Below are positions 5,828-12,348 of a DNA stretch of 14,417 bases, piece after piece. Below the pieces are notes generated by a model. It saw only the letters and a program-made list of their open reading frames with translations. It was not told the origin of the DNA and made no database searches. The position numbers and the translations under genes are program-made. Source of the DNA: Strigomonas culicis (Eukaryota > Euglenozoa > Kinetoplastea > Trypanosomatida > Trypanosomatidae); assembly GCA_000482145.1 (NCBI GenBank), contig AUXH01000495.1:1-14417 (forward strand), read 5' to 3'. Numbering within the stretch: the first letter of the stretch is position 1; the number at the start of each line of letters is the position of its first letter.

Positions 5828-6679
5828 TCACATCACCACACACGGCGTCATATACCTCTTAATAAACAACACTATGTCATCCTTTAGCCGATCCTTCAGC
5901 TCGGATGGCCCACAGCCAAACTGCACACATGTCACCTCCGTGAGCCGCTTCTGGAAGGGATTCAAGAAGGTGGACGCGTCTTTGAGGACCTTCAAGTAGT
6001 GAGGAAGTGTCGTTCTATACGCAGAGAACAACCCCTCCATTAACACACCGCCGCACAGCAGGAACCAGCTCCATCCCACGGTCGGAGGTGTAAGGGGCGT
6101 TGCTACTGCTGCGGCACCCAGAACGTAACCACCTCTCCTTGCGCCTAACGTTGTTCGGAGCCAACGTGCCCCACTGGGGTGCGCCAGTGCCAACGCGAAG
6201 TGTTGACTGTTGCACATCCATTCATCATATGGAGTGTGCTCAAAGTCCATCGCTACCAACATTTCCGCGAGCCATACAAAGTAGAGGGGCTCCACAAACA
6301 GTGTTTTCTGTTCATCCACGTCCTCTCTTTGCTCCGCTGTGAATGCCACCCCAGTGCTCTCCAAGTGCACCCACGTGGCCTCGCATCTAGCCAGCTTGGG
6401 CCACAGGGCGCCCCATAGGCGCGGGCAGAGATCCTTGGCCATCTTACCGGCGTACGCTTTCCGTAGGCGTTCTTCCTTTTCTTCGCTTTCTAACGCTTCT
6501 TTCATATCGGGGTTCGACCGCTTCACGGTGCGGGTGGCGTTCTTCATGCAATCGGAGAGCAGCTCCATCTCCGCTATGGTGTCACTTAGACACCTCTCTA
6601 GCTTGTTTTGAGAGCATATCTGTATTTCGCAATGCGCAAACGGGCGATATCGTATACCAACGCTTTGCGTAGCGCCCAT
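5828..6679 (-). CDS. orphan protein with N-myristoylation and CaaX farnesylation signals
   Basis: I do not recognise the family of this 283-residue protein. The N-terminus MGATQSV fits the N-myristoyltransferase consensus, with Gly2, small residues at 3-4 and Ser6. The C-terminus ends in CVVM (280-283), a textbook CaaX box. Methionine as X favours farnesyltransferase, including the trypanosomatid enzyme. If both modifications occur, the protein is anchored to membrane at both ends. Residues 58-80 form a charged, probably helical segment rich in E and K/R. Residues 184-219 are hydrophobic (Gly/Ala-rich, then WSWFLL) and could insert in or lie on a membrane. There is no signal peptide and no catalytic motif that I can name. 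Codon use is less GC-biased than in the neighbours. The ATG at 6679 overlaps the myristoylation signal exactly, which supports the start. Confidence 0.85.
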   Translation of the reverse strand: MGATQSVGIRYRPFAHCEIQICSQNKLERCLSDTIAEMELLSDCMKNATRTVKRSNPDMKEALESEEKEERLRKAYAGKMAKDLCPRLWGALWPKLARCEATWVHLESTGVAFTAEQREDVDEQKTLFVEPLYFVWLAEMLVAMDFEHTPYDEWMCNSQHFALALAHPSGARWLRTTLGARRGGYVLGAAAVATPLTPPTVGWSWFLLCGGVLMEGLFSAYRTTLPHYLKVLKDASTFLNPFQKRLTEVTCVQFGCGPSELKDRLKDDIVLFIKRYMTPCVVM

Positions 6680-6753: not shown

Positions 6754-7120
6754 TCAACAAAGAAGTGAGAAATGCATGAGAAGGCTCAGCAACGACGAAG
6801 AGGAGAGAAGAAGCATATACATGTATATTTACGCAACAAAACATCATCATCCGGATTCACTGAAGAACACTAATCTATAGATGAAGGTGGAGATACATAT
6901 ATATTTTTCTTTTCACTATAACATCGGAAAATTATTTTTTCTCATTTTTTGAGCCTCTCTAGTTCTTCTCTATTTCTTTTACTATTCGATTTGCAGGTTA
7001 AAGAAAAGGGAGTTGAACAGTTTTCTTTTTGTTTTAAGAAAGTAATTTTTTTTTTGATCTGTGTTTTTCTTTCCTTTATGCGTTGAGAACACCCCAACTG
7101 GAAATAAAAAACAGATCTTT

Positions 7121-9428: not shown

Positions 9429-10166
9429 TTAAGAAAAACGATAGGGGTTGTGGCGGTAGACAAGCGGCTGCTCGCGGCTGCACGTCGCAGACATGGCCTG
9501 CGCGCACGCCGTGTCCTGCGGTGTCGGCTGAATGATGGCGGTGGCGTAGGGCTGGTGCGTGCGGCGCCGCGCGGCGGGCTGTTGCTGCTGCTGCTGCTGC
9601 GGCAGCTGCGGCTGCTGGTAGCTGAACTGCGTGACGTGTGCGTCGGCCTGGTAGGCGGCCGCGTACGGGCTGTGGATCTGCTCAGACGTCGTCGTGTGCT
9701 TCGGCAGCGACACCATCACCGGCCGGCGGCGGCGCGCCGTCGCCGAGGTGAAGGAGCCGTTGGCGGTGTGCGTCGGCGACATGGGCGGCGACAGCACGTG
9801 CTGCGGTGGCTGCTGGTACTGCTCCTGCTGCGGCTGCTGCTGCTGGTGGTGGTGCGCGTTCTCCGAGGTGCTGGAAGACACATCCGAGGCGGACAGGATG
9901 TGGTCCGTGGTGCGGTCGGCGGCCGGGGTGGCGGTCGGCTGGTTCGTGAGCTCCGCGGCGCCGCCGTCGAAGAACGGCTCTAGCCTCTGCAGTCCGGTGG
10001 TCTTGAGGAGCGTGATGTTGTCCTGCTCATGCAGCAGCTCCTCCTCGCCGTGGGCGAAGGCGCACTTGGCGCCAAAAGGGCACACCTTCTCCGCCATGAA
10101 GAAGCTGCAGAGCGTCGTCTTGAACTTGCTCGGCTTCACCTCAGCGTGCTTGTTGGCCTTGGGCAT
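9429..10166 (-). CDS. CCCH zinc-finger RNA-binding protein with C-terminal MKT1-docking motif (ZC3H11-like)
   Basis: This 245-residue protein has one CX8CX5CX3H finger near the N-terminus (Cys20, Cys29, Cys35, His39; KTTLCSFFMAEKVCPFGAKC). Such fingers in trypanosomatids bind mRNA. The middle is disordered and rich in Q, S, T and P, with Q runs at 107-118 and 190-196. The last residues are VYRHNPYRFS. YRHNPY (237-242) matches the (Y/W/T)RHNPY motif described for proteins that recruit MKT1, and through it PBP1 and poly(A)-binding protein, to stabilise mRNAs. The finger-plus-C-terminal-HNPY layout fits ZC3H11, the trypanosome heat-shock mRNA stabiliser. Orthology is inferred, and other CCCH proteins share the motif. 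SP sites at 126-131 could be phosphorylated. The start at 10166 is the first ATG in a leader with no other ATG. The gene ends in tandem TAA TAA followed by an A run. Confidence 0.92.
   Translation of the reverse strand: MPKANKHAEVKPSKFKTTLCSFFMAEKVCPFGAKCAFAHGEEELLHEQDNITLLKTTGLQRLEPFFDGGAAELTNQPTATPAADRTTDHILSASDVSSSTSENAHHHQQQQPQQEQYQQPPQHVLSPPMSPTHTANGSFTSATARRRRPVMVSLPKHTTTSEQIHSPYAAAYQADAHVTQFSYQQPQLPQQQQQQQPAARRRTHQPYATAIIQPTPQDTACAQAMSATCSREQPLVYRHNPYRFS
9579..9599 (+). repeat. CAG/CTG-type microsatellite coding a Q7 run
   Basis: Seven consecutive triplets, six ctg and one ttg on the plus strand, encode glutamines 190-196 of the CCCH protein on the minus strand. It is a short triplet repeat likely to vary in length between strains. 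Confidence 0.8.
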
Positions 10167-10300
10167 GGTTGACTTTTTTTTTTTTCGGGTAGAGTTAGAT
10201 GGGTGAAAAAAAAAAGAAAGAGAGTGAGAAGAAGAAATGAAGAAAGTAAACGAAGAGAAAAAGCGCAAAGAGAGAAAAAAAGTGGTAAGAGGAGGAAATA

Positions 10301-11529: not shown

Positions 11530-12348
11530 TTATAGAAGTCGGAATGTGACGGGCTGGAGCGTCAAGGGCACAAACTGCGGCTGGGACTTTTGGCGTGAGA
11601 AAAAGAATATTTTTGTGTTCACATTATTATTATTATTATTGTCATTCTGCATCCTGTTCGCTGCCATGAGACGCGGGGGACAACGCACGGAGGCGCAGTA
11701 GCAGGACGGTGTGGCGGTCTGCTGCTGCTGCTCGTGTTGTTGTTGCTGCTGCTGCTGCTGCTGCGGGTTGTGGTTCTGGCGGCGCGCCTTGGGCGCCGGG
11801 GCGGTGCCATCGGCGTGGGGCTCCGCGGCCGGCGCGTGCGCCGACGACGTGAGCGGCGCGGAGGCCGTTGTTGCTGTTGTGGTGGTGGTGGTCATGGACA
11901 GGGGGGGACAACTACAACAACAACAGCGTCCGTTCTTGTAGTAGAACACGTCGTTGTGGTTGCCGGCCGCGGCCGCCGCGGCCGCCAGCAAGTTGCGGCG
12001 CGCGCCGACGGGATTGAGCTTGGGGAAGAGCGTCGCGCAAATGGGCGCGCGGGGCTGCAGCTCTCGTGGCCGGTGCTGCGTCCGCTGCTGCGCGGTGGGC
12101 CCGGCGGCGTTATCAGAGGAGGAGGACTCCGTGATGGAGTTGCGGTCGAGCGAGCAGGCATCGCCGTCGTCGTGGGCGTGGTGCTTGTCGCAGTGCGGCG
12201 GCGGCGCCTCCGCACTCGCGCGGGGGGCAGCGAAGAAGTCCGAGCGGTCGTCAAAGAAACCGGCGGTCAGCTTCAAGTAGTTCTCATTCGAATAGCTGGC
12301 GTTGTACGCCTCGTCTTGCGAGAGAAGGAACTCGGTAAGGAGGCTCAT
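11530..12348 (-). CDS. unrecognised low-complexity polyQ/polyN protein
   Basis: I do not recognise this 272-residue protein. It starts with an ordered-looking acidic/aromatic segment (MSLLTEFLLSQDEAYNASYS, then FFDDRSDFF). A His/Asp/Ser-rich stretch follows (52-80), then a second plausible conserved patch, ICATLFPKLNPVGARRNLL (103-121), next an Ala run, VFYYKNGRCCCCSC (134-147), a Thr run, Q9-HE-Q4 (196-210) and N6 (237-242). It ends with SQPQFVPLTLQPVTFR (255-270). The GC-rich composition, and the return of GC-rich sequence after the AT-rich polyN codons, support the whole frame. It may be a disordered RNA-associated or regulatory protein, but no domain is identifiable. NHNP at 192-195 lacks the tyrosine of the MKT1 motif. 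The ATG at 12348 is preceded by a purine-rich leader without other ATGs. Confidence 0.8.
   Translation of the reverse strand: MSLLTEFLLSQDEAYNASYSNENYLKLTAGFFDDRSDFFAAPRASAEAPPPHCDKHHAHDDGDACSLDRNSITESSSSDNAAGPTAQQRTQHRPRELQPRAPICATLFPKLNPVGARRNLLAAAAAAAGNHNDVFYYKNGRCCCCSCPPLSMTTTTTTATTASAPLTSSAHAPAAEPHADGTAPAPKARRQNHNPQQQQQQQQQHEQQQQTATPSCYCASVRCPPRLMAANRMQNDNNNNNNVNTKIFFFSRQKSQPQFVPLTLQPVTFRLL
11623..11640 (-). repeat. AAT microsatellite coding N6
   Basis: Six AAT codons in a row on the minus strand encode asparagines 237-242 of the polyQ/polyN protein. It is an AT-only repeat in an otherwise GC-rich reading frame. Confidence 0.85.
11719..11763 (-). repeat. CAG/CAA repeat coding Q9-HE-Q4
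   Basis: Fifteen codons encode nine glutamines, His-Glu and four more glutamines. CAG and CAA are mixed, which suggests an older, partly stabilised tract rather than a fresh expansion. Confidence 0.85.

Follow-up and report, generated by a model that had tools for sequence, protein, structure and literature searches.

A candidate dual-lipid protein of Strigomonas culicis with putative N-myristoylation and CaaX farnesylation signals at its two ends

Is the 283-residue protein encoded at 5828..6679 on the minus strand of this window (the whole analysed stretch of 14,417 nucleotides from Strigomonas culicis) held at a membrane by a different lipid at each of its ends? The original prediction raised this possibility from the termini of the reading frame, MGATQSV and CVVM, and both are exactly as it described them: the re-read codons give the former at 6679-6659 and the latter at 5842-5831, directly before the TGA. 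Residues 1-7 of the protein, here called P0001, form a candidate N-myristoylation signal (6659..6679, minus strand) with Met-Gly, a small residue 3 and Ser6, at a start that is fixed by an upstream stop. Residues 280-283 form a candidate farnesylation signal (5831..5842, minus strand), a C-terminal CaaX box in which Cys280 is followed by two aliphatic residues and X is Met. We regard P0001 as a real and unusual candidate. The explanation that we favor, with slightly less than even confidence, is that P0001 is the product of a genuine kinetoplastid gene, a lineage-restricted or fast-evolving protein that would sit at the cytosolic face of a membrane and be held there by lipids at both ends.

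The co-occurrence of the two motifs was compared with what is expected in this genome. The base-rate sample comprises 200 kb, taken as 20 stretches of contigs C1-C10 from an assembly of 17.7 Mb, and its 240 open reading frames of at least 100 residues were reduced to 72 by a composition and overlap filter; the 48 of these with at least 250 residues serve as background for the comparisons below. Given the composition of the 72 ORFs, a strict CaaX box (X = M or Q) is expected by chance in 1.3e-4 and the MG motif in 4.6e-3 (0.46%) of proteins. Both end motifs together are expected in 6.1e-7 per protein, which corresponds to 0.005 pairs per assumed 8,000 genes, or 0.025 with a broader CaaX definition; because the feature was picked post hoc, these motif-pair figures are no true P-values. 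Among 31,508 internal positions of the same ORFs the strict CaaX pattern occurs 0 times, the broad pattern 18 times and the myristoylation core 163 times. Three of the 72 ORFs start with MG, one of which carries the strict motif, and four have a Cys at position -4, two of them fitting a CaaX box. The observation of paired end motifs in P0001 is sound, and the pairing is unlikely by chance.

The CaaX box is the stronger of the two lipid signals, and P0001 is probably farnesylated at Cys280. This is well supported because genes for the beta subunit of farnesyltransferase and for PRL-type phosphatases that end in CaaM are present in the genome, and because Met at X is accepted by the T. brucei enzyme. 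The beta subunit (locus L004) matches solved farnesyltransferase beta at 5.1e-21 and, more weakly, the beta subunits of GGTase-I (1.4e-5) and GGTase-II (1.2e-4); a second prenyltransferase beta subunit is encoded at locus L003. The T. brucei farnesyltransferase readily uses Met or Gln at X, and Ser, Thr, Ala and Cys not readily (accessible part of PMC3206815), which bears out the earlier suggestion that Met at this position suits the trypanosomatid enzyme. The two PRL-type genes lie about 3 kb apart on the minus strand of contig C5 (L019; 4895-5422 and 8722-9351) and end in CVMM and CAVM. The gene ending in CVMM matches solved PRL phosphatases (7.3e-79 to 3s4o, 2e-38 to PTP4A1); the one ending in CAVM has weaker Pfam matches, and its likeness to the CVMM gene was judged by eye. 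The CAVM gene also opens with MG and was considered as a second dual-lipid case, but an internal Met aligns by eye with the start of its neighbor, and we dropped it. Farnesylation of PRL-1 has been reported in T. cruzi (PMC2175518), and the two genes would be useful as internal farnesylation controls.

The evidence for myristoylation is weaker than that for farnesylation. Searches of the 17.7 Mb assembly for an N-myristoyltransferase, run with the Pfam profiles of its N and C domains, with a motif pattern and with a fragment of human NMT1, had no working positive control and returned no match; two of these searches found no match in any control genome either. Both this enzyme and a spliced-leader core are expected in a kinetoplastid, and two patterns for the spliced-leader core also had no match in the 17.7 Mb, which either speaks against a kinetoplastid origin or reflects an assembly gap. 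We read the missing transferase as a gap in the assembly or the search because the same genome encodes an ARF-like frame with an MG start and a calpain-like protein that begins MGCLHST. The ARF-like frame contains MGGWLSS, which we took to be its start by analogy with ARF1; earlier Met codons are present in this frame. At 12 ARF loci, an ARF-like frame was found in five (four with an MG start, by our reading), none in six and an unrelated frame in one. Together, the MG-start ARF-like frames and the calpain-like protein point to myristoylation in this organism. The genome also holds a single match to the GMP_PDE_delta family (PF05351) at locus L038, 1483-2190, minus strand, with no second match at E <= 0.01; we take it to be UNC119-like, UNC119 being a protein that carries myristoylated cargo.

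MG opens 5.26% of the T. cruzi proteins in databases, and about 0.43% of that species' proteome is estimated to carry myristate (PMC4974623); predictions of the myristoylated share give 0.75% for L. major and 0.76% for T. brucei (PMC1885993). By itself, the MG motif of P0001 makes its myristoylation about an even bet, because the chance rate of 0.46% is close to the estimated T. cruzi share of about 0.43%. Somewhat unlikely, in our judgment, is the alternative explanation that P0001 is an ordinary CaaX protein, of no known family, carrying farnesyl as its one lipid, its MG and Ser6 being coincidental. The greater strength of the CaaX box (1.3e-4 by chance), the presence of the enzyme and of other CaaM proteins in the genome, the 163 internal positions that fit the MG core, and the transferase searches, which found no match and had no working positive control, all fit this alternative; however, Gly2, a small residue 3 and Ser6 occur jointly at a well-fixed start. 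That P0001 carries both lipids is roughly an even bet.

If both lipids are present, Gly2 would receive myristate from N-myristoyltransferase while the protein is being made, and Cys280 would receive farnesyl from farnesyltransferase, after which the VVM residues would be removed and the new carboxyl end methylated. With two weak anchors, a single chain would be attached to the membrane lastingly rather than reversibly, and an uncharged, proline-centered stretch (residues 183-214; 6038..6133, minus strand) may dip into the same leaflet as the anchors. The role of P0001 as a clamp or scaffold is something we infer, as are both modifications and the topology.

The original prediction described a hydrophobic segment at residues 184-219 as a third possible membrane contact. 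A stretch of this kind is present; its limits differ (32 uncharged residues, 183-214, with PLTPP in the middle), and the highest hydropathy lies elsewhere. The Kyte-Doolittle maximum of 1.54 falls on residues 126-144 (6248..6304, minus strand), and residues 200-218 reach 1.33. As a transmembrane helix the third contact is unconvincing, since half of the sampled ORFs (24 of 48) attain an equal peak; the octanol scale gives residues 196-214 a score of -7.8 kcal/mol, a value also reached by 15 of the 48, and we have demoted this reading. N-myristoyltransferase and farnesyltransferase are both cytosolic enzymes. Because of this, both lipidated ends would have to be cytosolic, which forbids a single-pass helix. 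In L. donovani, only three MG hits have a predicted transmembrane domain (PMC4372256). An uncharged stretch as long as residues 183-214 occurs in four of the 48 sampled ORFs, and a comparable proline-centered one in one of them. Residues 183-214 could form a hairpin that leaves both ends of P0001 in the cytosol, an idea that arose after seeing the sequence. A parallel is ANKRD22, an N-myristoylated monotopic hairpin protein that, like P0001, combines an MG motif with a proline-centered hydrophobic segment; the hairpin of ANKRD22, with both ends cytosolic, was tested experimentally (PMC8478909), whereas P0001 offers only a resemblance in sequence features. A more specific form of the explanation is a clamp in which the Gly2 myristoyl, the Cys280 farnesyl and the 183-214 hairpin enter one leaflet and make attachment on the cytosolic side practically permanent, or, should the two ends reach apart, a tether that links two membranes such as those of flagellum and pellicle; we consider this form unlikely.

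Two further alternatives concern the termini. The CVVM may be buried or due to chance, so that P0001 would be attached through Gly2, perhaps with help from the hydrophobic stretch. Typical CaaX linkers are flexible. The residues preceding the CaaX box of P0001 include IVLFI, less open than such a linker, and the MG motif is a good one, but CVVM is near-ideal for the T. brucei enzyme (PMC3206815), and we consider myristoylation as the only modification quite improbable. Little probability also attaches to the explanation that neither end is modified, P0001 being soluble or bound to membranes in another way and its ends coincidental: no relative was found to attest conservation of the ends, and searching for motif pairs yields them, yet only 0.005 to 0.025 pairs are expected per 8,000 genes.

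Dual lipidation presupposes that the frame is translated as read. The ATG lies at 6679-6677 and the TGA stop at 5830-5828, both on the minus strand. Upstream, an in-frame TAA is separated from the start by eight codons, none of them ATG, and the start therefore cannot lie further upstream, barring an intron. Counted from the upstream stop the open frame has 291 codons; its second in-frame Met is residue 38. The other five frames across 5828..6679 contain 6 to 19 stops each, and 1,000 base shuffles of this interval, three frames each, yielded open runs of at most 182 codons. The codon score of -0.012 is undercut by only two of the 48 sampled ORFs, and the margin over the best other frame (0.142; sample median 0.220) by five. 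GC3 is 0.64, below which four of the sampled ORFs fall, and it is 0.91, 0.96, 0.85 and 0.80 in four neighbors within the window. The 48-ORF background had passed a filter that demanded high GC3, and the comparison therefore leans against P0001. The frame scores as coding, weakly, and its profile resembles that of a non-core or weakly expressed gene. At 6785..6815, minus strand, a pyrimidine tract with AG resembles a spliced-leader acceptor by consensus; 105 bases separate it from the start codon, and another ATG lies within them. That P0001 is not translated as read, with another start (the Met at residue 38 being next) or no gene at all, is very improbable: its codon score is under that of 46 and its margin under that of 43 of the 48 sampled ORFs, GC3 is only 0.64 and the best acceptor-like site leaves an ATG upstream of the start, but this is the sole stop-free frame, 101 codons longer than the longest shuffled run, and the calpain-like gene of the same genome has a lower codon score.

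Protein database searches with the whole of P0001 and with residues 88-283 found no relative, and scans of viral contigs, genome contigs and its own genome returned only the gene itself. The searched database does contain kinetoplastids, as the helicase gene in the window shows; the method reaches fairly close relatives only. Distant orthologues could escape such a word-based search, and P0001 is not established as an orphan: even the conserved helicase is just 38 to 46% identical to its named relatives, and for this reason a faster-evolving orthologue of P0001 could be missed. The claim that the protein belongs to no recognizable family agrees with Pfam and NCBIfam, neither of which gave a match; Pfam offered no family up to E 10. 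The sole PDB match, a xylanase at E 0.2, was taken as chance, and a single-sequence AlphaFold2 model (mean pLDDT 41.6, mostly helical) is not usable. The string NSQHFALAL (residues 157-165) suggested an LRAT-like acyltransferase domain; there is no such Pfam match in P0001 at E <= 10, the one weak match in the genome lies elsewhere, and we dropped this candidate. That match is below threshold (18.8 bits, cut-off 24.3) and lies within an 819-codon open frame (L002, contig C470, 10889-11035, minus strand).

Several known proteins share parts of the proposed arrangement. KinesinCaaX (CVIM) and the PRL-1 phosphatases end, like P0001, in a Cys, an aliphatic pair and Met; P0001 has neither a kinesin nor a phosphatase domain in Pfam, and the accessible parts of PMC3206815 and PMC2175518 mention no N-myristoylation for these proteins. 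The kinetoplastid proteins PPEF, CAP5.5 and HASPB share with the candidate an MG start and, if the prediction holds, a chain that bears two lipids (PMC1885993, PMC4372256), but their second lipid is palmitate, in CAP5.5 presumably on a nearby Cys (PMC4372256), whereas P0001 would carry farnesyl at its opposite end. The nearest case found in the literature is that of protist FYVE-Rheb and PX-Rheb proteins with a CaaX box, which contact membranes through both termini, as proposed for P0001, by other means: a lipid-binding domain makes the contact at the N-terminus, and the myristoylated FYVE-Rhebs of euglenozoans are without CaaX (accessible part of PMC5869587). P0001, unlike Rheb, has no GTPase domain in Pfam.

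According to the authors of GPS-Lipid, the common partner of myristoyl is palmitate, not a prenyl group (PMC4910163). In the open-access literature, mostly at the level of abstracts and including PMC8358228, PMC4910163, PMC5869587 and PMC8478909, we found no natural protein with myristoyl plus farnesyl, and a term search of PMC10940682 had no match; the absence of such proteins is unproven. If proven, the combination on P0001 would be a new anchoring arrangement and would allow a test of two different end anchors acting together. The protein would also report on two enzymes at once, both of them subjects of trypanosomatid drug-target work (PMC3206815, PMC4372256).

The window itself is kinetoplastid in character. 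Rfam and tRNA scans of it were empty. On its minus strand lie all the genes with recognized domains, which encode a mitochondrial carrier, a DEAD-box helicase and a CCCH zinc-finger protein. The relatives of the helicase bear the name DDX27; among its best 25, 21 are named to organism and 21/21 are kinetoplastids, at the 38 to 46% identity given above, which makes the source a kinetoplastid with no close kin among these named genomes. The CCCH zinc-finger protein (9429-10268, minus strand) contains glutamine-rich runs. A 272-residue Gln/Asn-rich frame at 11530-12348, minus strand, has no Pfam match and a positive codon score.
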